Shown here one piece after another: positions 40,874 to 55,639 of a stretch of DNA of 64,000 bases. Below the pieces are notes generated by a model. That model saw only the letters and a list, made by a program, of their open reading frames with translations, was not told the DNA's origin and searched no databases. A program made the position numbers and the translations under genes. The first letter of the stretch is position 1. Each line of letters opens with the position of its first letter. This DNA is from an uncultured Dehalococcoidia bacterium. Its GTDB lineage: Bacteria; Chloroflexota; Dehalococcoidia; Lucifugimonadales; UBA3495. The stretch is taken from assembly GCA_951813535.1 (NCBI GenBank), contig OX638345.1:3588608-3652607 (forward strand), in the 5' to 3' direction.

Positions 40874-41306
40874 TTCTCTATCTCCCCACTAATCACCGCC
40901 GGCAGATGCCTTTTAACCGGGTCACCGCTGCGGCCCGCCCGAAGGCGGATGGCCGTACCGTCAACGGTAATGTTGATGTGCATTTGTCGACGCGAAAATT
41001 TACGGCAACAGTGTAGATTTCCAGTGTTACGGACTAATGACGGAAATGTTACAAAGTTGTTACGCGCAACCGGGATAGCTCACCGGCACAGGGAAAAGTT
41101 CGGCGGATCGACGGGCCGCAGTCAGCTTCAGCGTGTCTCCGCCGGATAAGGCCGCAGGTGGACCGCCACCCGCGGCGGCTTGATTCGAGAGTGCTGTTTG
41201 TGCCGAGTTTACGAAAATCGGCGGCGCCGATATTGTTTGCCGCCCGATTGCCCCGCCGGCGTATCGGGGAGCGCCGTCCGGCCGATAACGATTGCAAAAG
41301 ATCAAT

Positions 41307-41807
41307 ATGGTCTCAAGACCCGGAATATTCCACAGGTGGTATATCGTCGCCTGCGGGTTCCTGAGCCAGGGAATGCGCGTGGGCCTGGGAGCCCAGACGT
41401 TCGGCTTCTTCTTCAAGCCGATGATCGAGGAACTGGGATGGAACCGCACCGTGATGACCGGGGCGCTCCTGGCACGAGACCTGGTCCGGGCGGGCGCATC
41501 ACCTGTCTTCGGATACGCCGTGGATCGCTTCGGCCCTCGCTTCCTGATGGCGGGCAGCGCGGTCGTGTTGGGCGTGTCGATGATGCTGTTGTCCCAGACC
41601 CGGGGGCTCTGGAATTTTGTCCTGTTTTACGGCGTCATCGGAACCTGGGTCGGCTACGGCTTCGTCAGTCCGACCATTGCCAAGTGGTTCGTTCGTCATC
41701 GGGGCCGGGCCACCGACATCGCGACGGCCGGGCTCAATGTCGGCGCGGTTGCCCTTGTTTTTGGAGTAGGCTCGGAGCCTATCCCACGACCGCCCAAATC
41801 AACGTGA
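41307..41807 (+). pseudogene. MFS transporter, 3' part missing
   Basis: The frame from ATG 41307 (MVSRPGIFHRWYIVACGFLS) encodes the first four to five membrane segments of an oxalate/formate-antiporter-like major facilitator: GFFFKPMIEELGWNRTVMTG, the DRFGPR loop between segments 2 and 3 (YAVDRFGPRFLMAGSAVVLG), and WFVRHRGRATDIATAGLNVG. It breaks off at about 41765. The last residues (SEPIPRPPKST) are unrelated and overlap the end of the convergent gene at 41779. Only about 155 of an expected 400 residues remain, so a deletion fused it to the next gene's 3' side. Confidence 0.8.
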
Positions 41808-42495
41808 TTGCGCCCGCCGCCACCAGCGATCCCGCCCACAGCAGGTCGAGGTTGATCCAGCCGCGTCGCAGAAACGCCAGGCCGACCCGGTAGTAGACGA
41901 CCACCGCCGCCGCCAGCATCGCCGCCAGCATGACGACGGTGTGCATCAGAAGCCCGGCGAGCCACCATACGGGGGCGTCGGTCAGGGACAGAAAGCCGCC
42001 GTGCTCACCCAGGTCGCCGACAATGCCCGACGCGGCGTCCGGGCGGGTCAGGGAGAGTACCACCGGAGCCAGCATCAACCCCGCGCCGTGGGCCGACGCC
42101 ATCAGAAATGACCAGGCGATCAGGTCGCGTCCGCCCACGTTCATCCCCACCCACCGGGGGTGTCGGTAGTATCGGACCAGCCGGTAGATGCCGAAGCCCA
42201 GCAGGATCGCGCCCGCGGCGATGCGCACCCATTTCAGGGGCAGGAACGCGCCGGCCAGGACCAGCGCGGCCATGATGATCGCCACCGACGCCAGGTGGCC
42301 GATGGCGATGTATCCCGTGGCAGTGTACAGCTGGACCGGCCGCTGCCGCTGCAACGCCAGCGCCACGGCGAACAGCCACCCCATCGCCGGGTTCAGCCCG
42401 TGGAATACCCCCAGCGCGGCCAGACCCAGCCACGGGCCCAGCGATGCCAGGGCCGCCGGATCGGGAATGAGGGCGTGCAGCAACACTGCCGACAC
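41779..42495 (-). CDS. polytopic membrane protein, NicO-like
   Basis: The 238-residue product has six to seven membrane segments. Two histidine-glycine motifs within helices, LAALGVFHGLNPAMGWLFAV at about residue 25-44 and LMASAHGAGLMLAPVV at about 130, resemble the HGxxxxH-type metal sites in NicO/UreH-like transporters, although the second His of the first motif is absent. I therefore call it NicO-like with caution. It lies 55 bases downstream of the SBP56 gene on the same strand and may be cotranscribed with it. The metal idea fits, since SBP56-type methanethiol oxidases bind copper. Confidence 0.65.
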   Translation of the reverse strand: MSAVLLHALIPDPAALASLGPWLGLAALGVFHGLNPAMGWLFAVALALQRQRPVQLYTATGYIAIGHLASVAIIMAALVLAGAFLPLKWVRIAAGAILLGFGIYRLVRYYRHPRWVGMNVGGRDLIAWSFLMASAHGAGLMLAPVVLSLTRPDAASGIVGDLGEHGGFLSLTDAPVWWLAGLLMHTVVMLAAMLAAAVVVYYRVGLAFLRRGWINLDLLWAGSLVAAGAITLIWAVVG

Positions 42496-42550
42496 TGCCG
42501 GTCCGGCGGCCCTGGAGCCGTTTGTTACGTTTTGTGAACGGTAGTGCGCG

Positions 42551-43933
42551 CTACGGGAAGCAGTAAGTATCGGACGAGGCGTCGCCGCCCTGCAGCCGCA
42601 CCTGGTGGGTGCGCGTCTTCCCGTAATCGACGAAGAAGTCCTCGTTCACCGACATTCCGCCCTCGGGATTGACATCGATGCGGCTGAGCCAGCCGTTCAG
42701 CCCGTCGGGATAGAACTGGTCGTCCCACGAGGAATAGAGCGAGTTGGTCAGGTACACCCGCCGGCCGTCCCGACTGATCTCCACCATCTGCGGACCGCCC
42801 GTGAGGGTCGCGCCGGTGGGATGCGCCGCCTTGCGCACCACGCCGCCCATCTCCAGCTCGCCGGTCTGCACCGGGTTGAACGGGTCGGACACGTCGTACT
42901 GCAGCAGCTTGCCGGTTCCCCAGCAGGACACGTAGAGGAACCGGTCGTCCAGGGAGAGGTCGATGTCGGTGATCAGCGGCGGCACCGCGCCCAGGGGCTG
43001 CAGGGCCGGCGGCAGATCCGCGGCTTCCGCCGGTTCGGCGGGCACGGATATGACCTTGCGGGCGGCCCATTCGTCGCCGTCCCGGTACCAGACGAATATG
43101 GAGCCGGAAAGATCCTCGGTGCTCACCACCACGCCGCAGAATCCGTAGTGCCGCGTCGGGTTGTGCGCCGGACGCAGCTCCAGGGCCATCTGATGCTGTG
43201 CCCCCAGATCAACGGCCTGCCGGTGAGTCCGGCGGCGCATATCCCAGAAGTGCAGCATGTGGCCGTAATTCTGTCCCACCACGTCCTCCAGCCGTGCACC
43301 GGTTTCGAACATCTCGGGAGTGCCCCACTCGCTGGTCATCATGGTGTCGATGCCGATGTGCCACCAGAAATCGTAGGCCAGTTCCTGCGGCCCGCGGTCC
43401 AGCTCCCACGGCCCGATGGGCTCGAAGGTATAGTGGTCCAGCATCATGATTCCGCCGGGCCGGTCGCCGTCGGCGGAGCCCAGGGCGCTGACGTAGATCG
43501 CGTCCGGCCCGCAGTGAACGGTGTGGGGACGGCTGTAGCCCGCCCTTCGCACCTGCTCGGCCTCGATGGTCTTGACGATCCGCGGGCGCTGCGGGTCGGG
43601 TTGGGTGTCGATGATGTAGATCCGGCTGTTGGCCAGGCTCGGGACCACCAGGTAGCGGCGCTCCAGGTGGGGATGCGCCGACGACGGGCAGAGGGCCGCG
43701 CTGCAGGCGTTCCAGTTGAAGTGGTGCAGCTCGTCGCCCACGTGGGGCATTTCCAGCGAGTGGACCACCTGCGAATACGACGCCGAGTTGGGGTCGCAGT
43801 CCACCACGGTCATCGCGTCCGGCTCGCCGGTGCCGGGATTGAGCACGGCGACATAGGCCAGGCGCTCCTGCGGAGCTTCCATAGCCAGGCGCGCCGAGGG
43901 GTAAAAGGTCGGGTCGGGTCTCCAAAGGGCCAT
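42551..43933 (-). CDS. SBP56-family methanethiol oxidase (selenium-binding protein)
   Basis: The 460-residue product follows the SBP56 pattern: WRPDPTFYPSARLAMEAPQE at the N-terminus, VGDELHHFNWNACSAALCPS (the HHxxWNACS box), YSRPHTVHCGPDAIYVSALG and TDIDLSLDDRFLYVSCWGTG, with an ending EDFFVDYGKTRTHQVRLQGG. The enzymes oxidise methanethiol to formaldehyde, hydrogen sulfide and hydrogen peroxide and use copper bound by histidines. No signal peptide is visible, so it would be cytoplasmic or exported by another route. It may process sulfur compounds from dimethylsulfoniopropionate or methionine degradation. Start ATG 43933. Confidence 0.93.
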   Translation of the reverse strand: MALWRPDPTFYPSARLAMEAPQERLAYVAVLNPGTGEPDAMTVVDCDPNSASYSQVVHSLEMPHVGDELHHFNWNACSAALCPSSAHPHLERRYLVVPSLANSRIYIIDTQPDPQRPRIVKTIEAEQVRRAGYSRPHTVHCGPDAIYVSALGSADGDRPGGIMMLDHYTFEPIGPWELDRGPQELAYDFWWHIGIDTMMTSEWGTPEMFETGARLEDVVGQNYGHMLHFWDMRRRTHRQAVDLGAQHQMALELRPAHNPTRHYGFCGVVVSTEDLSGSIFVWYRDGDEWAARKVISVPAEPAEAADLPPALQPLGAVPPLITDIDLSLDDRFLYVSCWGTGKLLQYDVSDPFNPVQTGELEMGGVVRKAAHPTGATLTGGPQMVEISRDGRRVYLTNSLYSSWDDQFYPDGLNGWLSRIDVNPEGGMSVNEDFFVDYGKTRTHQVRLQGGDASSDTYCFP

Positions 43934-44596
43934 CTTTCCGCTCTCCTTCGTCTGTCTCTCTCACACGGCGCGTCTTCCGCACATTGCGCTACGGGCGGCC
44001 GTATCTTAACTCCGCTCGGTTGGCAGGGCGGCATGTCAAACGCACTCCACCGGGTCAGTATCATATCCGGTTCGAATGCCACTGGATACCCAACCAAGGG
44101 ATCAACTGGGTCTTGACCTTCCCATCCGCCGCAGTCCTATGGATTGTCGATCGCCCCGATCTGCAATCCGCCGCAAGACGGTTGGCCGAGCCGGCGTGTC
44201 GATGGCGCGAGCGAAGGAAAATGTTGGCACGTGTGATCGAGGTACGGAACTTCGCGCTCTTCCGTACACCTTGGTAGACTATGGGAGGTGCAATGCGTCC
44301 AGCGTGGCACGCACTGAGGACGAGGTCCACGCGTTGACCACCACCATCGACAAACTTGAGGCAATAGAGGCCGTGTCACGAAGGTGGTGGCGAATTTCTG
44401 AGCGATCTTATATACCAGAAAGAGGGCGGCGCATTAACTGCACCGCTACCTCAGGTCAGGATGGCAGCGAATCTGTGGGTGAGGATCCATCACAAAACAT
44501 ATCTGAGAGTGCTCAAAGCAGCCGAGCGACATTCGCCGTCGGCGCATGGGTCGTGACCGATTGACAGTCGCCGATGCCAAAGTCTAACCAATCGAT
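43934..44596. other. stretch without a supported gene
   Basis: Open frames exist, the longest 44076-44564 on the plus strand, but its sequence (rich in R, S, T) has no family resemblance and no ribosome binding site. A shorter alternative frame near 44400-44560 is no better. It probably contains the promoter of the SBP56 gene and decayed DNA upstream of the protease. Confidence 0.4.
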
Positions 44597-44608
44597 GTGG
44601 AGACAACA

Positions 44609-45433
44609 ATGGCACTGATTCCTTCATTTTACTTGGATGCGGTCGTTGCCTTAGGAGACATCTCTCCCGACGGCACCACCCGGTACCACTCGACGGGCTT
44701 CTTGTACGGTTGGCCAGCTGGAGAAAACGAACATGGCCAAAAAGTGCACCGGACTTTTCTTTTGACCAATAAACACGTTCTAGAGGGAGCCCTCACGCGC
44801 GACTGCGCGCTCCAAGCGAGATTCAACACACAGGATGAGACCGGAGCAAACACTTACGAGATAGACCCTACAGGTGAACACTGGACCGTCAACCTGGATT
44901 ACGATGTTGCCGTTCTGTCGGTGAACACCATGAGGCTAGACGCTGACGGCATCAAATTTAGCGTCTTCCACGCCGAGCAACACACTTTCACGCTTGAACA
45001 GGCTCGCTCTGCCGAGATCGCTGAGGGAGACGGCATTTTTGTTTTGGGGTTTCCATTGGGGCTAGCCGGTGACGAGCGCAATTACGTCATTGCCAGGCAA
45101 GGTGTAATAGCGCGTGCACAAGATTGGCTTAAAGAAAAGAGCCGCGATATTCTGATCGACGCATCAATTTTCCCCGGTAACAGCGGAGGGCCAGTCGTTC
45201 TGAAACCTGAAGTCGCTGCGATCTCGGGCACGAAAGCTAACGACCGTTGCGTGCTGATTGGTATGGTGTCTAGTTACGTCCCGTACCGGGAAGTTGCCGT
45301 GAGTCAGCAAACTGGTAGACCAAGGATGGTGTTTGAGGAAAATTCTGGTCTAGGCAAGGTGGTCCCGAACGACGTGATCCAAGACACCATCCGGTCTGCC
45401 GTCCAGAAACTACCGTCGAGCACTCGGTGCTAG
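44609..45433 (+). CDS. trypsin-like serine peptidase
   Basis: Starting at ATG 44609 (an in-frame ATG at 44597 is the alternative) gives 274 residues. The catalytic triad is visible as TNKHVL (His about 56), NLDYDVAVLSV (Asp about 97-99) and PGNSGGPVVL (Ser about 192). The fold is that of the trypsin-2/HtrA-like peptidase domain without a PDZ domain. No signal peptide is seen, so it would act in the cytoplasm. Stand-alone proteases of this type are known partners in some anti-phage and regulated-cleavage systems, but no effector gene is adjacent here. The stop overlaps the convergent gene by 4 bases. Confidence 0.85.
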   Translation: MALIPSFYLDAVVALGDISPDGTTRYHSTGFLYGWPAGENEHGQKVHRTFLLTNKHVLEGALTRDCALQARFNTQDETGANTYEIDPTGEHWTVNLDYDVAVLSVNTMRLDADGIKFSVFHAEQHTFTLEQARSAEIAEGDGIFVLGFPLGLAGDERNYVIARQGVIARAQDWLKEKSRDILIDASIFPGNSGGPVVLKPEVAAISGTKANDRCVLIGMVSSYVPYREVAVSQQTGRPRMVFEENSGLGKVVPNDVIQDTIRSAVQKLPSSTRC

Positions 45434-46545
45434 TAAGCTCGGTCAACTCGTGCCCCGTGTGTCCTAGCGCACGTGAAAATGATCGTCACCGCCTCCCATT
45501 CCCCCGGCGCATCTTCCGCCTTCGTTACGTCCCGGTCGAAAACGCGGGCTGGCGTATTTCCCGCCACGTCCTCCAGCCGCGGTTCGACGACCAGTTGGTA
45601 GTCACCAGTTTTCCAAGGAACATCCGGCGCAAAGCTCCAACTGTGCTCACGTTTCCCGATCTCGCCCATGCCATCCAGCGTCACATCCCCGGAATCCCTC
45701 ACCGACAGGCAGTGCTGTAGCAGCCCGTGGTCCAGCGGCCGGTCGAATTCAACCTGCAGCGGGTCTCGCGAGCCGGCGGCGGGGGTGGTCACTTGCCAGG
45801 CGGCCGGGTCAAGGCGTGAGCGCAGAGGCGGCCCAACGTCATAGCTCCGTGCCATCCCCGCCCGGAGCGGCTGACCCGTTGCGTCGCGGAAGGCCGGGTC
45901 GATGGTGATGCGGACCGTCGTGCCCTCGACCAGCGGGTAGCCGAACTCCAGGTTGGGCACGAGGCCGCGCTTGATGCGGCCCGGGTCCAGCAGCATGGTC
46001 AGGCGTTTGCGCTGGGCGTCCCACAGCTCCGGCTCGGGCGGCAGGAAGACGTCGTCCAGGGTTTCGCCGGTGTCAGCGCGGGTGACGGTTATCGCGCGCG
46101 CCGCCCAGCCCTCGCTCATCGGCGCGGAGAAGTGCACGTATACCCGCAGCAGGTTGACCGGAAGCTCGGCGGCGGTGGGGTAGATCTCCAGCGCCTCCGT
46201 GGTGGTTGACCCTTTAGAGGATGCCCGCCGGATGTCCCAGACCTCCGCGCCGCAGACAGACCCAACCAGCAGGGAGTAGCTCACCCCGTCGACAAAGGGG
46301 AAGCGGGGCACGAACCAGGCCGCTTCGCCTTCGATGAGGAAACTACCAGCCACCGGTGGAACAACCGGCCAGCCCCCGCCGTGAGGCACGGCCTCGCTGG
46401 GATACAGGGCGAGACGCCGGGACAATGCCCCGGCGTCCAGACCGTTTAACTCGCCAAGTTCGGCCTCAGTCCAGCCGCCGATTTTCAGGCAGTCGCGTCC
46501 CTCGTGCTGCGCCCACTCCAGTTGCAGTCGGCGGCGCTGGGTCAC
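45430..46545 (-). CDS. SbsA-like Ig-domain protein of unknown function
   Basis: The 371-residue product starts with GTG 46545, which overlaps the TGA of the gene before it (GTGA), so the two are coupled. It contains LLRVYVHFSAPMSEGWAARA, the typical strand of SbsA/Ig-like domains (a bacterial Ig-like module), followed by FLPPEPELWDAQRKRLTMLL and LDPGRIKRGLVPNLEFGYPL, then a second similar module (LQVEFDRPLDHGLLQHCLSV). I recall this layout from conserved proteins of unknown function in soil and marine bacteria. No signal peptide is visible although such domains are often external. Confidence 0.75.
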   Translation of the reverse strand: MTQRRRLQLEWAQHEGRDCLKIGGWTEAELGELNGLDAGALSRRLALYPSEAVPHGGGWPVVPPVAGSFLIEGEAAWFVPRFPFVDGVSYSLLVGSVCGAEVWDIRRASSKGSTTTEALEIYPTAAELPVNLLRVYVHFSAPMSEGWAARAITVTRADTGETLDDVFLPPEPELWDAQRKRLTMLLDPGRIKRGLVPNLEFGYPLVEGTTVRITIDPAFRDATGQPLRAGMARSYDVGPPLRSRLDPAAWQVTTPAAGSRDPLQVEFDRPLDHGLLQHCLSVRDSGDVTLDGMGEIGKREHSWSFAPDVPWKTGDYQLVVEPRLEDVAGNTPARVFDRDVTKAEDAPGEWEAVTIIFTCARTHGARVDRAY

Positions 46546-47633
46546 AGCGTCGCGGTGGCGTAGGTGCGGAGATGCGAGCGCCCTTCCTCGTCCTGCTGGA
46601 GCATCAGCACGCCGTTGCCGTTGAGGTTGGCCATGCGCTTGACGCCGGGATGGGGCAGCAGTTCCCGCGGCACGCCCACGCCCGGCGTCACCGGGTCGGC
46701 CGGCGAGGCGTCCATCGAATCATCGGGCTCGGTCAGCGGACCCTGCACATCAATGTCCTTGCAGGCGACCTTGAACAGCGGATGCCGGTCGTTGCACACC
46801 AGCAGGTACTCGCCGCCGTCGTGCTCGTACGAAATCAGGTCAATCGGATGATTGTGCGAGCCCAGTTCGGCCACGGTCTTGCCCATGACGTGCTTTTCGG
46901 TGTCGAAATCGGCCAGGGTGAACTGCACCACCGGCGTGCACGTGTAGCTGGCCAGGATGCTGGTGTTGTCCTGGTAGGGCACGAAGGCACGGATGGGCGC
47001 GGCCGTCTCGTACACGCCGTGGGAGACGTGGAAGATCTCCAGGGAGTTGGATTTGGCCTCGCCGTTGAAGGGGAAGGGAATCCGCCGCAGGGTGGAGGTG
47101 AACTCCTCGTTGGAGGTACCCGCCACCAACAGCAGCCCGTCGACGTAGGACATGTCCGTCACGGTGACGGTGCGAAGCTGCATGCGGGTCACCAGACGCG
47201 GGTCGTCTGCGTCGGCGGCGTCGGTGATGTCGTACCGGGAGAAGGCCACGTCATCCAGCGGCACGTCCCCGATGGAACCGTCGCCGGACACCCTGATGAT
47301 CACCGGCGTCGCCGCGTCGCCGCTTCCGCGCATCACGGAGCAGTACACGTTGCCCGACCTTGGGTGCGCCACGATGTCCCGGATGGTCACATCCTCGCGG
47401 GAACAGCCCAGGTAGGACGCCAGGGACGCGTCGAAGTTCTCGAGGTTCACGTCCTGCGGCTCGCCGTCGCCGGCGTCTCCGACGTCGATGGCGAAGATGG
47501 ACGCGCCCACGTTGTCGGCGGCGAACAGCACGCCCCCGGGTCCGAAGGCCAGCGGACCAACCGATTTGATCGCCGGCGTACCAACGGCCAGGCCGAGATT
47601 TGCCAGACTTGTCGCAGTTCCGAGGTCAACCAT
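46542..47633 (-). CDS. beta-propeller-like protein of unknown function
   Basis: The 363-residue product from ATG 47633 begins MVDLGTATSLANLGLAVGTP. Repeated strands such as GPLAFGPGGVLFAADNVGAS, DIVAHPRSGNVYCSVMR and VTVTDMSYVDGLLLVAGTSN suggest a seven-bladed propeller resembling NHL/YVTN-type sensors. Two C-terminal histidine motifs (SHNHPIDLI; NDRHPLFKVACKDI) may bind metal. No signal peptide. Coupled to the SbsA-like gene by a 4-base overlap; both probably work on the same unknown process. Confidence 0.75.
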   Translation of the reverse strand: MVDLGTATSLANLGLAVGTPAIKSVGPLAFGPGGVLFAADNVGASIFAIDVGDAGDGEPQDVNLENFDASLASYLGCSREDVTIRDIVAHPRSGNVYCSVMRGSGDAATPVIIRVSGDGSIGDVPLDDVAFSRYDITDAADADDPRLVTRMQLRTVTVTDMSYVDGLLLVAGTSNEEFTSTLRRIPFPFNGEAKSNSLEIFHVSHGVYETAAPIRAFVPYQDNTSILASYTCTPVVQFTLADFDTEKHVMGKTVAELGSHNHPIDLISYEHDGGEYLLVCNDRHPLFKVACKDIDVQGPLTEPDDSMDASPADPVTPGVGVPRELLPHPGVKRMANLNGNGVLMLQQDEEGRSHLRTYATATL

Positions 47634-47797
47634 GACTACCTCCTACGCTTTTCGTATCGAGATTTTCGCCAGTGTAGCATCGTGGCGACTGCCGGGCTAC
47701 CGCCGGGCCAAAACCGACGCAGTTTTGCTATACTCCGGCCGGTAAACACCACCGATAAACATGAAAGGAATTTGACGACCGCCGCGAGGAGATCGCC

Positions 47798-48166
47798 ATG
47801 ACTACCGAACGTCGCCGAGGAACCGTTACCCTCCGCCAGGTGAGCGGATCCGCCCGATCAAAGAAGGTCAGGGTCGAGTTGGGAGAAGAGTCCGCCTTCA
47901 CCGACCTCCCCGCGCCCGTGAAGGTGGGCGACGCCCGGTACTTCCTGGTGCGCGGGCGCGACGGGTACAAGCTGCTGTCCACCATCTGCCCCCACCAGGG
48001 CGGCGAGATCGAGGATGAGGGCGACGAGGTGTTCGTCTGCGACGGCCACGGCTGGCAGTACGAGAAGGGCGAGGGCACCTGCGTCAACCAACCCGACTTC
48101 CGCATGAAGGCGTTCCTGGTCACCCAGCAGGAGGGCCGGCTGGTGGCGCTGGTCCCAGACGAATAG
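47798..48166 (+). CDS. Rieske [2Fe-2S] ferredoxin-like protein
   Basis: The ATG at 47798 follows GAGGAGATCGCC. The 122-residue product contains the two Rieske boxes: CPHQGGE (Cys-x-His) and CDGHGWQYEKGEG (Cys-x2-His), with 16 residues between them. It would be a small soluble electron carrier of the type feeding Rieske non-heme oxygenases or acting alone in redox. A CTATACT -10-like box lies at about 47728-47734. No oxygenase is adjacent. The first 30 residues are basic and not part of the domain. Confidence 0.9.
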   Translation: MTTERRRGTVTLRQVSGSARSKKVRVELGEESAFTDLPAPVKVGDARYFLVRGRDGYKLLSTICPHQGGEIEDEGDEVFVCDGHGWQYEKGEGTCVNQPDFRMKAFLVTQQEGRLVALVPDE

Positions 48167-48196
48167 GCCACTCCGCCCAACCGTCGAAATGAGTTC

Positions 48197-48223
48197 GGCC
48201 CCGGGGCGAAACGCTCCGGGGCC
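48197..48223. terminator. bidirectional hairpin between convergent genes
   Basis: GGCCCCGGGGCG / CGCTCCGGGGCC with loop AAA gives a 12-bp stem containing one G-U pair. It lies between the Rieske gene and the convergent deacylase gene and serves either strand. No long T-run. Confidence 0.65.
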
Positions 48224-48254
48224 GTTCGCATGGCCGTCAGCGACCGGATCGGGA

Positions 48255-49931
48255 TCAGCCGACCATGTCGTAGCTGCGCAGGAGCTTGCCCGGCAACTCG
48301 CCGGTGCACTCATTTTCAACGAATGTGACGGTGCCGTTGACCAGGATGTAGCGGATGCCCGTGGGCTTCTGCACCAGCCGCTTCTCGCCGCCGGGGAAGT
48401 CGGTCTCGAACCGGGGCTTGTCGTACAGCAGCCCCAACTCGTCCATGTTGTAGATCATGACATCGGCATAGTCGCCGACGCGCAGGGTGCCACGACCCTT
48501 CATGTCCGAGAACGCCGCCGGCAGCGCGCTCATCTTCTGGTGCGCCTGCTCCAGGGTCATCAGCTCGTTGTCGCGGATCCAGTGGCCCAGGAAGTACACC
48601 GGCCACACGCTGTTGACCAGGAACCGGGTGTGGGCGCCGCCGTCCGACACCGAGATGTGGACGAAGGGATTGACCAGCCGCTCGGCCCGCGCGTCGTCGC
48701 CCTGCCCGCCGGCCGGATGGGCGAACTCCGTCTCGAGGTCCTCGTCCAGCGCGATGTCCAGGAACGCGTCCAGCGGATGCTTGCCCTCGGCCTCGGCGAT
48801 GTCGGCGATGGACAGGCCCTCGTACTTGAGGTTCCGTTCCAGCGCCACCTCGACCACCTGCACTTGCGTCCAGTCGGTGCGCGCGTGGGGCCGCTCGATG
48901 ACGTCGCGCTTCATGCCCGAGCGAATGCCGTCCTCGGACAGCTTGGCGATGCGCTCCTCCTTGCTGCCCACCAGCGGCTGCACCCAGTTGGGCATGTAGT
49001 CGAACAGGTTGTACTCGGAGAGCTTGAACTCGGCGATGGTCGGCACCGAACCCTGCTGCGCCAGTACGGGCAGTCCCTCCTGCCGGACCTCCTCCAGCCA
49101 GTCGTAGCCTTCCTCATCGCCCAACGCGACGTGCAGCGGGCGGCCGCTCATGCGCACCATCTCCGCCAGCATCTCCCGCTGGCCGGGCCGGTCATCCGAG
49201 ATACCGATGGTCCAGCCCAGGTGGCCCACGCCGAACTGGCTCAGCACCTGCGACAGGGCGTAGAACTCCTCGGGCGACGCCACGTGGCTGGGCAGCCAGC
49301 TGCCGTCCTCGGGCCGGTCCTCCAGGTTCTTGTCGGCGGACAGCCCGAACGCCCCCGCCTTCATGGAGTCGTGCAGGATCTGCTTCATCTGGTTCAGCTC
49401 GGCGTCGGTCACGGAGGTCCGCTCCCGCGCCGGAATCATGCCCAGCACGTAGCCCCGCAGCGGCGAGAAGGGCACCAGCGCGCCGACGTTCACCCCCAGG
49501 CCCTGCCGGTCCAGGCTGTCCATGTATTCGGGGAAGGTCTCCCAGTCCCAGCGCATCCCCAGCCGCATCGACTCCAGCGGGATCGCCTCGATGCGGTTCA
49601 TCATGCGCATGTTCAGGTCCCGGTCCTCCGCCCGGGTCGGCGCGAACCCGAAGCCGCACTGTCCCACGGTCAGGGAGGTTACGCCGAACCATCCCGACAG
49701 CGACGCATAGGGGTCCCAGTTCAGTTGCGCGTCGTAGTGCGTGTGCAAGTCCACGGCGCCCGGGGCCACGATGCACCCGCTGGCGTCCAGTTCCCTGGCG
49801 CCGCCAGAGCTGATGCGGCCGCTGATCATGGCCACCCGCCCGTCCTTGATGCCCACATCGGCGCGGACGCGGGGCAGGCCGGTGCCGTCGATTACGGTTC
49901 CACCGCGAATTACCAAATCAAATTCCGGCAT
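48255..49931 (-). CDS. N-acyl-D-amino-acid deacylase family amidohydrolase
   Basis: From ATG 49931 with GGGAGG upstream, the product is 558 residues. It shows the amidohydrolase start MPEFDLVIRGGTVIDGTGLP, then IVAPGAVDLHTHYDAQLNWD (the HxH metal site), GVTSLTVGQCGFGFAPTR (the conserved Cys ligand of D-aminoacylases) and the C-terminal HISVSDGGAHTRFLVNSVWP (catalytic Asp). The family removes acyl groups from D-amino acids or hydrolyses related amides. A cytoplasmic enzyme. It might alternatively be a dihydroorotase-type or N-acyl-D-glutamate deacylase. Confidence 0.9.
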   Translation of the reverse strand: MPEFDLVIRGGTVIDGTGLPRVRADVGIKDGRVAMISGRISSGGARELDASGCIVAPGAVDLHTHYDAQLNWDPYASLSGWFGVTSLTVGQCGFGFAPTRAEDRDLNMRMMNRIEAIPLESMRLGMRWDWETFPEYMDSLDRQGLGVNVGALVPFSPLRGYVLGMIPARERTSVTDAELNQMKQILHDSMKAGAFGLSADKNLEDRPEDGSWLPSHVASPEEFYALSQVLSQFGVGHLGWTIGISDDRPGQREMLAEMVRMSGRPLHVALGDEEGYDWLEEVRQEGLPVLAQQGSVPTIAEFKLSEYNLFDYMPNWVQPLVGSKEERIAKLSEDGIRSGMKRDVIERPHARTDWTQVQVVEVALERNLKYEGLSIADIAEAEGKHPLDAFLDIALDEDLETEFAHPAGGQGDDARAERLVNPFVHISVSDGGAHTRFLVNSVWPVYFLGHWIRDNELMTLEQAHQKMSALPAAFSDMKGRGTLRVGDYADVMIYNMDELGLLYDKPRFETDFPGGEKRLVQKPTGIRYILVNGTVTFVENECTGELPGKLLRSYDMVG

Positions 49932-50176
49932 ACAGTTACCTCCCAACGGCAATGTGCTGCAGTTTCGTCGCGATCTGCCCGACGATATGAGCAAATCATG
50001 GTGGCGGCAGTGTAAGTGCGCTGTAAATGGCTGTCAATTTTGTGACGGATATCGCAATCGTTATGCAAAGCAGCGCAGTTTTCCTTCCAGGCTAGCGCCC
50101 GGACGTCGTCGGTTCACTCGGCCACCGTGGACGCCTGATACCATGACTGTCACCAGATAATAAGGAGCCACCCGCC

Positions 50177-51061
50177 ATGGCAGACCAGCAAATCTCCGCC
50201 GCCGATCCTCACCCCAGACGCCGGGTCCAGGCGCTCGACGTGGAACTCGCCACCGTCGATACCGGACAGGGCGACCCGGTCGTGTTCCTGCACGGGAACC
50301 CCACCTCGTCCTACCTGTGGCGCAACGTCATCCCCCACGTGGCCGAGAACGCCCGCTGCCTGGCCCCCGACCTGCTGGGCATGGGCGAGTCGGACCGCGC
50401 CCCCGACGGGTCCTACCGCTTGGTCGACCACGCCCGGTACCTGGACGCCTGGTTCGATGCCCTGGGGCTGACCGAGAACGTCACGCTGGTCGCCCACGAC
50501 TGGGGCTCGGCGCTGGCCTTCCACTGGGCCCATCGACACCAGGACCGGGTCAAGGGGATCGCCTATATGGAGGCCATCGTCCGGCCTTTGGCGTGGGACG
50601 AGTGGCCCGAGCGTTCCCGGGGACTGTTCCAGTCCATGCGCTCAGCGGACGGCGAGCAGATCATCCTGGAGCGGAACGTGTTCGTCGAGCGCATCCTGCC
50701 GGCCAGCGTGATGCGCGGACTGACCGAACCGGAGATGGAGGTCTACCGCCGGCCCTACCTGGAACCCGGCGAGTCCCGCCGGCCGACCCTGACCTGGCCC
50801 CGCCAGATCCCCCTGGACGGCGAGCCGGCCGACGTGGTGGAGATCGTCGATGCCTACTCCCGATGGCTGTCGTCCAGCAACGTCCCCAAGCTGTTCATCA
50901 ACGCCGACCCGGGCACCATCCTGACCGGCGCCCAACGCGAGTTCTGCCGCTCCTGGCCCAACCAGCGCGAGGTGACGGTCCCCGGCTACCACTTCATCCA
51001 GGAAGACGCGCCGGCTGAGATTGGGCGGGCCGTTGCGGAGTGGCTGGACTCGCTGGCGTAG
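50177..51061 (+). CDS. haloalkane dehalogenase (subfamily II type)
   Basis: The 294-residue product has an alpha/beta hydrolase fold with FLHGNPTSSYLWRN (halide-binding Asn41), the nucleophile in LVAHDWGSALAFHW (D108 followed by W109), the acid E132 in YMEAI and the base H272 in PGYHFIQEDAP. The Asp-Glu-His triad with the Asn-Trp halide pair is that of HLD-II enzymes such as DhaA and LinB. They hydrolyse haloalkanes to alcohol plus halide. AAGGAG precedes ATG by about 10 nt. It lies alone, and the IS1380 copy begins 29 bases beyond its stop. Confidence 0.92.
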   Translation: MADQQISAADPHPRRRVQALDVELATVDTGQGDPVVFLHGNPTSSYLWRNVIPHVAENARCLAPDLLGMGESDRAPDGSYRLVDHARYLDAWFDALGLTENVTLVAHDWGSALAFHWAHRHQDRVKGIAYMEAIVRPLAWDEWPERSRGLFQSMRSADGEQIILERNVFVERILPASVMRGLTEPEMEVYRRPYLEPGESRRPTLTWPRQIPLDGEPADVVEIVDAYSRWLSSSNVPKLFINADPGTILTGAQREFCRSWPNQREVTVPGYHFIQEDAPAEIGRAVAEWLDSLA

Positions 51062-51089
51062 TATTCCAGAGAGGAGCCCATCTTGGCTA

Positions 51090-52803
51090 AGCCCCAATCC
51101 ACCGAAAGGATGGGTGTGGCGGCATGGTGATGGGATAAGAAAGTGCTCCCGGCTTCGGGGATAATGGTTTTTGACAACGAAAACCAATCCCTCACAAGGA
51201 GCACCCAACGGATGCTACCACCTGAGCGTCCTGACCGCATCCATGTCGCCTTCGACGATCACCGCTTGGTGGCCAACGCCGGGCTGCTTTTGCCGGTTAC
51301 CCTGGCCCATCATCTGGGGCTGGGCGAGTTGGTTGACCGCCACGTTGACTTGGGAGATGCGCCGGGACGGGCCAACGCTGGCGACAAGATACTGACGTTG
51401 GTGGCATCGGCATTGGCCGGTGGCGACTGCATTGATGATGCCGACGCGCTACGCGCTGGGGGGACCGAGCACGTGCTGGGCTGCGCAGTCAAGGCGCCTT
51501 CCACGCTGGGGACCTTCCTGCGGAGTTTCCGATGGGGCCACGTGCGGCAGCTGGACCGGGTGAGCCGAGAGGCGCTGGCGAGGGCCTGGGCGGCTGGTGC
51601 CGGACCCGGCGATGAGCCGCTGACCATTGATCTTGATTCCACTGTCTGCGAGACCTTTGGGTTGGATAAGGAAGGCGCGCAGCGCCACAACTACGCGGGA
51701 CAGCGGGGCTATCACCCGCTCCTCGCCGTTGCCGCCGGAACCGGCGACGTGCTGATGGCACGGCTGCGCCAGGGCCGGGCCAACACCGCTCGAGGGGCCG
51801 CCCACTTCCTGCGTGAGACCATCAGCCGAGTGCGCTACGCGGGGGCCACCGGGCCACTGACCATGCGGGCCGACAGTGGCTTCTACAACCACGACATCGT
51901 CGCCGTCTGCCGGAAGACCAAGGTCCGCTTCTCCATCACCGTACGCCAGTACCAAAGCGTGCGCAATCTCATCGAGGCCATACCCGAAGCAGAGTGGACG
52001 CCCATCCCTTACTGGATGGAGGGAGCCGCCGACGTGGCGGAGACCACCTACACTCCGTTTCAGCATGAGCCCGACGCCGTATCGGTCCGACTCATCGTCC
52101 GCAGAGTGAAACCCACGCCCGGCTCCCAACTCGCGCTGCTTGCCACCCACAGCTATCACGCTTTCATCACCGATAGAGACGGCGACACCCTGGAACTGGA
52201 GGCCAACCATCGCCGCCACGCCGAGATCGAGAACGCCATCCGCGATCTCAAGTACGGCGTGGGGCTCAATCACCTGCCCTCGGGGCGCTTCCCCGCCAAC
52301 GCCGCCTGGCTGGCAGTACAGGTGATGGCGCATAACCTCGCCCGCTGGACCGCCCGCATCGGCATGGGAGAGCAACTGATCACCACCAAGACCCTCCGAC
52401 GACGCTTCTTCTCCCTCCCCGGACGCATCACCCGCAAGGCACGCCGTCTCACTTTGCATCTTCCCCGGGGCTGGCCCTGGCAGAACCAGTTCGCTGGTGC
52501 CCTGGCGAGACTGCGCGCCCTGCCACTGCCTTCCTGACGCCGCCCTCCGCCTTTGACCTATACACAATAACGCCCCACGCCTGGACGATCAGCGCCTCAG
52601 GCTGGGCCCCTCACGGTCTCCGCCGGCGGTCTGCGCTGAAAATCGCTCCCAACGCCGCTACCACGGGCCGCAAACATCCCCTGGCGTAGCAGCCACACTA
52701 CCCATCGTCCATTTCACCGGCATCCGGTCCTCGCCAACCCATGCCCTGACCCCGCATCCCTCGTCTGATCGCCGCCGCGGTATCCCCTCGGTGGATTCGG
52801 GCT
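51090..52803 (+). mobile_element. IS1380-family insertion sequence, copy 2 (intact)
   Basis: The left end AGCCCCAATCCACCGA (about 51090-51105) and the right end TCGGTGGATTCGGGCT (52788-52803) are imperfect inverted repeats. The layout is the same as copy 1 at 1006-2722, with an uninterrupted transposase. The two copies differ at many third positions, so they are related but not from a very recent single burst. The insertion point is immediately behind the haloalkane dehalogenase gene. No target duplication could be assigned. Confidence 0.88.
51212..52537 (+). CDS. IS1380-family transposase (intact)
   Basis: The 441-residue product starts at ATG 51212 (MLPPERPDRIHVAFDDHRLV), behind AAGGAGCACCCAACGG; an in-frame start at 51143 would include the IS leader and is unlikely. 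The DDE domain (IS4-like group, Transposase DDE group 1) shows LTIDLDSTVCETFGLDKEGA and LTMRADSGFYNHDIV as its first two acidic strands, and RRHAEIENAIRDLKYGVGLN contains the C-terminal Glu. It cuts and pastes the element and may also act on the defective copy at 1 kb. Confidence 0.93.
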   Translation: MLPPERPDRIHVAFDDHRLVANAGLLLPVTLAHHLGLGELVDRHVDLGDAPGRANAGDKILTLVASALAGGDCIDDADALRAGGTEHVLGCAVKAPSTLGTFLRSFRWGHVRQLDRVSREALARAWAAGAGPGDEPLTIDLDSTVCETFGLDKEGAQRHNYAGQRGYHPLLAVAAGTGDVLMARLRQGRANTARGAAHFLRETISRVRYAGATGPLTMRADSGFYNHDIVAVCRKTKVRFSITVRQYQSVRNLIEAIPEAEWTPIPYWMEGAADVAETTYTPFQHEPDAVSVRLIVRRVKPTPGSQLALLATHSYHAFITDRDGDTLELEANHRRHAEIENAIRDLKYGVGLNHLPSGRFPANAAWLAVQVMAHNLARWTARIGMGEQLITTKTLRRRFFSLPGRITRKARRLTLHLPRGWPWQNQFAGALARLRALPLPS

Positions 52804-52855
52804 AAGGCTGCCCGTCATCCTTGTGACCTGCACAATGCAGCGAATTTTCAACCGC

Positions 52856-53320
52856 CTATCCCGATTCGAGAGCAGATCTCACGGCCTCAACCGCGTCGTC
52901 AATTTTGTCATGCTCCCAAACTCTCACTACCTTCCAACCGTCTCGCTGTAGGGCATGGGAGTCGGCCAAATCTTTAGCTTTGTTGCCGTTTAATTTGGCC
53001 TCCCAATAAGTCACGTTGGTTTTGGGCGTCCGTCCATGTTCAGGGCAGGAATGCCAAAAGCACCCGTCAATGAAAACCGCTACCCGACGTTTGAAGAAAA
53101 CTATGTCGGGACGCACTCTACGCTCTGATGCATCAACAGGGGCATCTACGCGATATCGCCAACCTTGGCGATGCAAAGCAGAGCGCAAAAGCAGTTCGGG
53201 CTTCGTATCCCGTCGTCGATTGGCCCGCATGGTTGCGGTGGCGGCAGAGCTCGAAGCAACAGGCGGTGTCAAGGAAGATAGGGCGTATTCAGCTGCCAAG
53301 CCGACCACCCGATCATGCAT
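52856..53320 (-). CDS. vsr: very short patch repair endonuclease
   Basis: From ATG 53320 the product is 154 residues; an ATG at 53368 is the alternative. The core MRANRRRDTKPELLLRSALH, GWRYRVDAPVDASERRVRPD, VAVFIDGCFWHSCPEHGRTP and VVRVWEHD is the Vsr signature: the catalytic Asp in RRVRPDIVF, the FxDGCFWHxC zinc and metal region, and the intercalating aromatic segment. Vsr nicks at T:G mismatches produced by deamination of 5-methylcytosine, so it goes with the C5 methyltransferase upstream (41-89 bases away). Confidence 0.92.
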   Translation of the reverse strand: MHDRVVGLAAEYALSSLTPPVASSSAATATMRANRRRDTKPELLLRSALHRQGWRYRVDAPVDASERRVRPDIVFFKRRVAVFIDGCFWHSCPEHGRTPKTNVTYWEAKLNGNKAKDLADSHALQRDGWKVVRVWEHDKIDDAVEAVRSALESG

Positions 53321-53408
53321 AGTTTTCACGTGAGCCACAACCAGCAACTGGAAGCGCCGCATTCCCAATCGATGCCGTACAGTCTTCGAGCGCGCCCACC
53401 TTCATCAA

Positions 53409-55511
53409 CTAATGAGGGCCTAGAAACTGCTCACCGTCAAAATGAATCATATGATCTGGTTCATCCACTATCCAGACCTCCGTCTCCCAACTGATGGACT
53501 TTGAGAATCTTCCGAACGTGGACGTACTCATGAACGCGCTGACGAACACGCACCCTACCGTTGCGTTTTTAGTGAGGCGTCGCAGGGCCAAGTGCCTAAT
53601 CCGGTCAATCGGGTTTGATGAATGAACTGCTTCGATGACAAACAACCATTCTTGCTCCTCGTCGTAGGCAAGCACGTCGGGCAACATCGTGTCTCTAGAT
53701 GGTTCTGCTATGCCCAGCGAGCGCAGTTTCTCCGCGTCGATGTGGAGCACTTTTCTTGACGTATCCCCCAAGTACAGCACCTCGGCTCCTTTTGAGAAGC
53801 GCGGCAGGAACTCCTCAATGATGGCCTTCTGAATTTGGTTGTGCGGGCCCGGCGATAGGTTGTAGGTCTCCCCACTTGGAAGTTTGACCGGAACCATCCT
53901 GAACTCACGCGCCTTGCTAAGTCTGTCCGCAAGTACTCCATTGTTCTGGCGGAACAGCCGGAGTTGTTCTTCCCAACTCTCATTGCCGTAACTGCGAATC
54001 AAGCTTAGTGATTCTTCCGGAATAGCATAACCTCTTGTTCCGTCATTGGTGTCCGCCGCAGGGTTTGCCGCGCTTCGCATGACCAAATTTGCTTCTTCAA
54101 GGATTATTAAATCCTTGCGTCGAACATCATCGTATGAGGAATCCGCGAGTTTCTCGCCGTAGTGCGTGTTCCAGAATCGTATGATTTCCCGCGTGGTAAC
54201 AGGATTGGGGCCTCCGTCAAAAAAGCTCTGAGCTTCCGTCCACGGCATATGCGGTTGCAGGTGTCCAACTGCCAGTAACGCCTTTGCAACTCGTTCCTGC
54301 CGACGTTTGGTGTAGTCTCTTAGTGGTACTCCAATGCTTCGCAATATGTTAAGAGACTGTTCAATTTTTACTGACGCTGGATCGCTGGTGAGGACGTCCA
54401 TTGCTACGATGCGCCTCCTGCAAGTCCCTTCTTTCGCACTTCGAAATTCCATCGCCAATGCAGATCTGACGCTTTGCGCAAGGGCGAGTCCCAGCAACGG
54501 CGCAACAGCGTTCCCTATCTGCTCGTATTGTTCATATTCATTGCCAGCGAACTCGAACCAGTCAGGGAATCCCTGCAAACGTGCGCCTTCGCGAACGGTG
54601 AGTCTACGCCGCTTACCATTCGGCATACGCAACCTTAACATATCCGACGTGGCTGCGCCGAGGTTTCTGCACGTTACGGTTCTCGACGGCCTATCCAAGT
54701 GGAGGTCGCGGGGGGTTACACAATGACTCCGGCGTTCGTACTCTGCAATGTATTTGTCCATACTTGGTGTGAGGTAATGACTGGCAGGACCTTCTTCGAA
54801 CGCCATATCGCCTAACGCAGTTCCAGCAGTTATCGGCGCTGTCACCAAAGGCTCAGGCCAACGCCAGCCGACAGTGGAGGCTACAATCACCACCCTTTCA
54901 CGCTTCTGAGGCACTCCGTAGTGCACGGAATTCAATATCTTGGTCTCAACTGTGTATCCGAACCGCTCCAGTTCGTGCACTACAGAACGCAGGTAGTCCT
55001 TGTTACGGTAGAGTGCTCCGCGAACGTTCTCAATGAGGGCAATCTTAGGTCGGATACGGTCAACTGCATCAAGGAATACGGGAAACCCATTTCGCCGATC
55101 GCGCTTACCACGCTGGTATCCAAATTGACTGAATGGTTGGCATGGGGGGCCGCCTATGATGACTTCAGCTGCATCGTCAGGCGCTCCAATTTCCAGGAAC
55201 ACCTGATGGCAGTCGCCGCTCAGATTCGCGGAGTACGTATCCGCCGCTGCCTTCTTCATTTCGTACCCTACCGAGCGAAATCCCTTCACCTCGAATCCAA
55301 GCGTGAGTCCGCCACAGCCTGCAAACAGATCAAGCACTACTGGGGCATTGGATGGCACATTTGACTTGGGGAGCGCTTCATGAAGCCAAGAATGCCAGGC
55401 ACTCTCCCCCATCCGGAAAAGACCCATTTGGAGTTCTTTTTCCATTTGATCAACCTTACCAAACAGTGGCTCTTGTGCAGTCTGCTGACATCGAGCATTG
55501 TATCCCAGCAA
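53409..55511 (-). CDS. fused cytosine-5 DNA methyltransferase and BsuBI/PstI-type restriction endonuclease
   Basis: The single 700-residue frame joins two enzymes. Residues about 55-350 are a C5 methyltransferase: motif I LDLFAGCGGLTLGF, motif IV GGPPCQPFSQFG with catalytic C124, motif VI ENVRG, motif VIII QKRERVVIV, TVREGARLQGFP, and motif X QIGNAVAP. Residues about 380-700 match the BsuBI/PstI restriction family: a helical part (IEQSLNILRSIGVPLRDYTK) and a nuclease part with LYLGDTSRKVLHIDAE, MLPDVLAYDEEQEWLFVIEA (D612, E627) and SWETEVWIVDEPDHMIHFDG. BsuBI and PstI work with adenine methyltransferases on separate genes, so this pairing in one chain is unusual. It should modify and cut the same site. 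Vsr follows. The exact start (MLG or the later MEKELQMGL) is open. Confidence 0.9.
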   Translation of the reverse strand: MLGYNARCQQTAQEPLFGKVDQMEKELQMGLFRMGESAWHSWLHEALPKSNVPSNAPVVLDLFAGCGGLTLGFEVKGFRSVGYEMKKAAADTYSANLSGDCHQVFLEIGAPDDAAEVIIGGPPCQPFSQFGYQRGKRDRRNGFPVFLDAVDRIRPKIALIENVRGALYRNKDYLRSVVHELERFGYTVETKILNSVHYGVPQKRERVVIVASTVGWRWPEPLVTAPITAGTALGDMAFEEGPASHYLTPSMDKYIAEYERRSHCVTPRDLHLDRPSRTVTCRNLGAATSDMLRLRMPNGKRRRLTVREGARLQGFPDWFEFAGNEYEQYEQIGNAVAPLLGLALAQSVRSALAMEFRSAKEGTCRRRIVAMDVLTSDPASVKIEQSLNILRSIGVPLRDYTKRRQERVAKALLAVGHLQPHMPWTEAQSFFDGGPNPVTTREIIRFWNTHYGEKLADSSYDDVRRKDLIILEEANLVMRSAANPAADTNDGTRGYAIPEESLSLIRSYGNESWEEQLRLFRQNNGVLADRLSKAREFRMVPVKLPSGETYNLSPGPHNQIQKAIIEEFLPRFSKGAEVLYLGDTSRKVLHIDAEKLRSLGIAEPSRDTMLPDVLAYDEEQEWLFVIEAVHSSNPIDRIRHLALRRLTKNATVGCVFVSAFMSTSTFGRFSKSISWETEVWIVDEPDHMIHFDGEQFLGPH

Positions 55512-55639
55512 CCATCGTTTGGGCAGGCCGATGTGTCATTATCGGTTGCAAGCTGTTCTCTGCTCCAACCGTTGACTCCGTCCTGCCATTTCTCCGCTCG
55601 ACAAATTCCCGCTCCATCGCTGGGTTGACAGGTCGGCAC

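Follow-up and report, generated by a model that had tools for sequence, protein, structure and literature searches.

In its classical form, a restriction-modification (R-M) system of the BsuBI/PstI type recognizes CTGCAG, protects it by m6A and is encoded by two genes, the methylase being an adenine (NPPY) enzyme. Methylase and nuclease also occur in one chain, methylase first: the PADLOC methylase model PDLC03359 (MTase_II), 840 residues long, ends in a BsuBI/PstI nuclease, and frames of 848-950 aa in Chloroflexota have the same layout. Type IIC enzymes likewise hold restriction and modification in one polypeptide, and their characterised members mostly carry adenine-type methylases. Pairing of a BsuBI/PstI nuclease with a C5-cytosine methylase is known as well, usually in the form of two neighbouring genes (in Bacteroidota, Cyanobacteriota, Verrucomicrobiota, Chloroflexota and others). 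For the individual domains, SdaI (PDB 2IXS; PF06616/PF17728) combines a winged-helix N-domain with a PD-(D/E)XK-type C-domain and the terminal signature WETExW...DHxIHxxGxxFLGP, and M.HaeIII and M.HhaI (PF00145) present the conserved C5 motifs in order on a common fold.

The locus described here lies in a 64,000-nt stretch of contig OX638345.1 from an uncultured Dehalococcoidia bacterium (the window). A C5-cytosine methyltransferase and a BsuBI/PstI (SdaI-like) endonuclease, both complete and both sharing the features just listed, are joined in frame at 53409-55511 on the minus strand. Unlike SdaI, the nuclease makes up the C-terminal part of a longer chain and its partner is a C5 methylase, not an adenine one, which also sets the gene apart from the classical BsuBI/PstI systems and from the NPPY-type fusions. 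M.HaeIII and M.HhaI differ from the methylase half, which has a small target recognition region (TRD), is fused to an endonuclease and carries a clamp-motif-like peptide at its N-terminus. The split C5 pairs have the same domains in the same order (identity to the window's proteins ~49-60% for C5 and ~34-49% for the nuclease), but are two overlapping genes or share a frame with one or two stops, and their clamp-like motif lies at the methylase C-terminus. Like Type IIC enzymes, the window's frame, which is known from sequence and kept in two species, unites both enzyme parts in one polypeptide, and we consider it likely that it encodes a working Type IIC-like enzyme with two recognition modules and Vsr as a partner.

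Anatomy and chromosomal setting of the fused gene

The first-pass annotation had described a single 700-residue frame holding all C5 motifs and a BsuBI/PstI-type region, a description that was borne out. The frame at 53409-55511 is open for 700 codons from a TTG, and residue numbers below refer to it unless stated otherwise. Codons 1-22, counted from TTG 55511, are unrelated between the window and G304, a different species of the same genus, and codons 23-56, from ATG 55445, have a dN/dS of 0.14. This pattern points to ATG 55445 as the most likely start; translation probably begins there and yields a product of 678 residues (probable CDS 53409-55445, minus strand).

The C5 DNA methyltransferase domain (54471-55337, minus strand; residues 59-347) matches DNA_methylase (PF00145) with an E-value of 7e-57 and 193.8 bits, against a cut-off of 22, and motifs I, IV (PCQ, containing the catalytic C124), VI (ENV), VIII, IX and X are all present in the translation. 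This half matches M.HaeIII and M.HhaI by sequence, and its AlphaFold model superposes on M.HaeIII (1dct) with Z 31.2 and on M.HhaI with Z 30.0. A linker (54369-54455, minus strand; residues 353-381), modelled in part with low confidence, leads to the nuclease half, which consists of the BsuBI_PstI_RE_N winged-helix domain (53928-54368, minus strand; residues 382-528, E 9e-28) and the BsuBI_PstI_RE catalytic domain of the PD-(D/E)XK type (53430-53894, minus strand; residues 540-694, E 6e-56). Both were recovered in the Pfam check of the C-terminal region that had been suggested earlier; the two models (PF06616 and PF17728) are covered almost entirely and score 188.5 and 97.3 bits, against a cut-off of 27. 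The catalytic-core residues D583, P611, D612, E627 and A628 are kept, as are nearly all residues that are at least 90% conserved in both nuclease classes. The matches listed by the structural search are methylases, and the identity of the nuclease rests on its homology to SdaI, which extends over the full length (E 1.5e-47). The complete domains and motifs support the earlier proposal of C5 chemistry and two putative enzymes in one chain. Both halves are well folded in the AlphaFold model of the fusion (mean pLDDT 87.7), in contrast to the linker and the first 11 residues, which are disordered; at a pTM of 0.57, the mutual placement of the two halves is undefined.

Comparison with genus members places the system in a variable segment (41067-55639). 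Given that this segment is absent in seven genus members, in which the flanks lie ~6 to 300 bp apart, and that G301, G304, G312 and G313 hold other or partly shared material between the same flanks, the system sits in a variable hotspot. Its GC content is 53%, compared to 64-66% in the flanks, and a conserved gene that resembles an ammonium transporter by the look of its translation lies beside the hotspot. In G304, ~8 kb of the right flank are syntenic with the window. An IS-type transposase (51143-52537; PF13701) lies in the hotspot too, adjoining vsr.

Fused and split relatives and their recognition modules

The first-pass annotation had considered both the fusion and the pairing of C5 chemistry with a BsuBI/PstI nuclease to be unusual, and neither view held up. 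A BsuBI/PstI domain is present in 28 of 301 genomes of the phylum; the loci opened there mostly contain an NPPY (adenine-type) methylase, adjacent or fused, with at least nine fusions of this kind in the sample. For the C5 form, 84,980 species genomes were scanned and the best 80 loci analysed, which were ranked by similarity to the fused query and do not provide population frequencies: 59 have separate C5 and BsuBI/PstI genes, 10 have them in one frame, and 11 have a C5 methylase with no nuclease found. Both partners are present in 69 of these best 80 loci, and the order of C5 followed by nuclease is common to split and fused forms. Among the ten one-frame loci, one is partly frameshift-broken (L086) and one cut by a contig end (L098). 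No fusions were found in plasmids, phages or viral contigs. In about 15 loci, one or two stop codons are all that separates C5 methylase and nuclease within a shared frame; L079, L081, L084, L087, L089, L091, L092, L094-L097, L099, L100, L102 and L109 are one step from fusion.

The C5 tree groups the proteins of the window and G304 with two Acidobacteriota sequences and one from Rhodopila in a single fused clade (SH-aLRT 99), and places the remaining fused proteins (mainly from Verrucomicrobiota, Lentisphaerota and Desulfocapsa) elsewhere. Well-supported branches require the fused state to have changed twice or more, and the best tree contains four such changes. Among the Cyanobacteriota, C5 methylases with no nuclease found alongside occur at L101, L106, L121, L123, L135, L139 and L153 (some on short contigs), and several of these proteins end in QLSL-type peptides. 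In two other loci (L070:4311-5333 and L074:4618-7146), BsuBI/PstI genes adjoin or are fused to adenine methylases interrupted by an in-frame stop, which suggests recent decay.

We read both halves of the fused protein as retaining their own reading heads, a short TRD in the methylase and a winged helix in the nuclease, and these two modules support the earlier suggestion of two recognition modes that must agree. The TRD (54693-54872, minus strand; approximately residues 214-273, the interval between C5 motifs VIII and IX, delimited by alignment and consensus) is short and conserved with the split homologues, which suggests a common target. In the nuclease, a putative DNA-recognition helix (54093-54143, minus strand; residues 457-473, or 435-451 of the 678-residue model) starts with S-Y-D-D in 95% of the C5-partnered enzymes, whereas the positions of Y460-D461 are occupied by R-E in 20/20 aligned adenine-partnered relatives; the helix reads SYDDVRRK in the window and SREDFRKK in SdaI. 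Since this helix differs consistently from that of the adenine-partnered relatives, CTGCAG should not be assumed to be the target.

Genomic site avoidance, for which spaced genome stretches were taken as the sample, identified no target in the host or the genus. CTGCAG, at an observed/expected ratio of 0.79, is not clearly avoided in the host, and its counts show no consistent relation to the presence of the system across the genus. CGATCG has a ratio of 0.52 (second lowest of 64 palindromes) and the most negative z, but the same holds in relatives without the system. The flanking genes scanned around C5 homologues that have no BsuBI gene did not point to any restriction enzyme whose specificity is known. 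Within the same genus, CTGCAG is nearly absent from G303 (24 sites in 3.3 Mb, compared to 1182 for the reversed control hexamer), despite no BsuBI/PstI gene being found in this genome, and it is also depleted in G306 (172 vs 893).

Proposed mode of action and competing explanations

In the mechanism that we propose, the N-terminal C5 methyltransferase would read the target through its short TRD and methylate one cytosine per strand, probably as a monomer, and the SdaI-like C-terminal part would read the target through its winged helix and cut sites that lack methylation, for which two fusion chains presumably form a dimer. For Type IIC enzymes, it has been argued that the monomer methylates and the dimer cuts (PMC12707154), so that methylation leads at low concentration. 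Low early concentrations of the fused protein would likewise favour monomeric methylation over dimeric cutting and allow the host to avoid suicide. The neighbouring Vsr would repair T:G mismatches that arise from deamination of 5-methylcytosine and, as a further step, an internal start might also make some free nuclease. We infer both activities, their identical target, the monomer/dimer timing and the partnership of Vsr with the fused enzyme from the anatomy of the locus.

The vsr gene (52856-53368, minus strand; T:G mismatch endonuclease, TIGR00632, 130.9 bits against a cut-off of 97.85) lies directly downstream of the fused gene and is syntenic in G304, where it also follows the fused gene. 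The nearest other C5 methylases, those of G301, G309 and G355, are each joined directly to a Vsr with 53-64% identity to that of the window. Given this synteny and the C5-Vsr fusions in the genus and order, the earlier suggestion that vsr is linked to the cytosine chemistry is plausible. Among the best 80 C5 loci from the scan of 84,980 species genomes, vsr lies nearby in about three; it is an occasional companion of C5 and BsuBI/PstI loci. Single C5-methyltransferase-Vsr chains of 487-528 aa were observed in the window's genus and order (L046:1964-3424(-), L047:4126-5709 and L048:4994-6556), and G301 carries a C5-Vsr gene at the same chromosomal hotspot, beside the transporter-like gene.

Many homologues of the fused gene are two genes, overlapping or one stop apart, which might suggest that the single frame is an artefact of sequencing or assembly, or else a fossil with a frameshift. 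We consider this scarcely conceivable, given that the independent G304 genome carries a syntenic, unbroken fused frame of 92% identity without an internal stop, and that a fused sister clade is present in Acidobacteriota and Rhodopila. The G304 copy rules out a frameshift artefact; a frameshift between the domains, the observation that the first-pass annotation had named as damaging to its claim, was not seen. Between the window and G304, dN/dS is 0.09 overall and low in both halves (0.07 for the methylase, 0.07 for the winged helix and 0.11 for the catalytic domain). Together with the syntenic copy, this purifying selection on both halves leads us to regard the fused gene as real and selected, and as neither artefact nor fossil. 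The same values (0.07-0.11 in the nuclease half) and the intact catalytic residues also argue against a protein that acts as an orphan m5C methylase, with the nuclease half serving as a DNA-binding or structural module only. Methylase-only use exists in the family, as seen from the 11 C5 loci with no nuclease found among the best 80 (several on short contigs), but for the window protein we judge it quite improbable.

A working Type IIC-like enzyme could be accompanied by a second product. An AGGAGG sequence formed by tandem Arg codons (54414-54419, minus strand) lies 12 nt upstream of an in-frame ATG (54401-54399) at the start of the nuclease; both are conserved at the nucleotide level in G304, and in both genomes this ATG sits exactly where separate nucleases begin. 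At ~330 aa, the predicted free nuclease would match the separate enzymes in size. Across 12 fused genes, a five-base Shine-Dalgarno sequence precedes 5/23 in-frame ATG or GTG codons in linkers and 3/260 in gene bodies (Fisher p 1e-4). The conservation and enrichment of this arrangement suggest that the one-chain gene may also yield free nuclease; however, the spacing of 12 nt is longer than ideal, and 3 of the 12 fused genes have no such start. Expression of both the full fusion and a nuclease initiated at ATG 54401, which would make nuclease modules outnumber those of the methylase and let the cell operate much as with an ordinary two-protein Type II system, is a possibility to which we give well under an even chance.

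A candidate clamp-binding peptide and its implications

The least expected and most interesting feature of the fused enzyme may be a short peptide close to its N-terminus, which we present as a candidate lead. QMGLF (55416-55430, minus strand; residues 6-10 of the 678-aa protein; candidate peptide MEKELQMGLFRMG) lies in a region that is disordered in the model and resembles peptides binding the beta sliding clamp. The published consensus is Q-phi-x-[LM]-[FL] or Q-phi-x-[LM]-x-[FL], with L, I, V or A at position 2 (PMC13254535), and the M of QMGLF falls outside this position-2 set. The peptide is identical in the window and G304, with one synonymous change.

Related peptides are found in the split systems. 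The tails of the split C5 methylases are highly variable, and many end in LTLF, QMSLF, QLSLPF or similar. Within the last 25 residues, the strict consensus occurs in 18/70 C5 tails (1.5 in shuffled tails) and, after removing relatives at 70% identity, in 7/27 (0.8 shuffled). A broader pattern, which was picked after the motif had been seen, matches 42/69 C5 tails compared to 7.9 in shuffled tails (maximum 19 in 2000 shuffles) and 17/489 tails of unrelated ORFs; after the same removal of relatives, it matches 17/27 compared to 3.2 (maximum 10). Neither the adenine methylase tails (0/16) nor the nuclease tails (0/57) contain the clamp-like motif. In 7/7 fused proteins of the non-window lineages (internal-linker type), Q[LMFT]xL followed by F, xL or xF lies within the linker (for example NQLSLDF, KQMELF and DQFALPL), while the window's clade is without a linker motif and has QMGLF, KTDLF, KPDLF or QPDLL near the N-terminus.

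The enrichment in C5 tails, the linker motif of the internal-linker fusions and the absence from adenine methylase and nuclease tails favour a model in which the methylases are anchored to the replication clamp and hemimethylated new sites would thereby be re-methylated ahead of the nuclease, the window protein using its N-terminal QMGLF. Set against this are the shortness of the motif, the post hoc choice of the broader pattern, the M at consensus position 2 and the closest split sister (L104), which has no clear terminal motif, and we put this model just short of an even chance. For the family at large, we tentatively propose, though we would not bet on it, that the C5 methylases of this widespread R-M family bind the beta clamp by a terminal peptide and act at the replication fork, and that on fusion this peptide was kept in the linker in some lineages and is N-terminal in the window's. 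The proposed tether would be comparable to the link of DNMT1 to PCNA. Neither the reviews of bacterial hemimethylation nor those of restriction-modification bring up the clamp, and the searchable open literature yielded no clamp-binding motif reported for a bacterial R-M methylase.

In the BsuBI/PstI family, adenine methylases and C5 methylases alike have become fused to the nuclease, the C5 methylases more than once. The loci with two genes, with genes one stop apart and with a fused gene constitute a natural series for asking how an R-M system spares its host at a fixed 1:1 ratio of activities. Should the clamp peptide prove functional, it would hint at how restriction hosts restore methylation at hemimethylated sites behind each fork, and would constitute a bacterial counterpart of the DNMT1-PCNA link.
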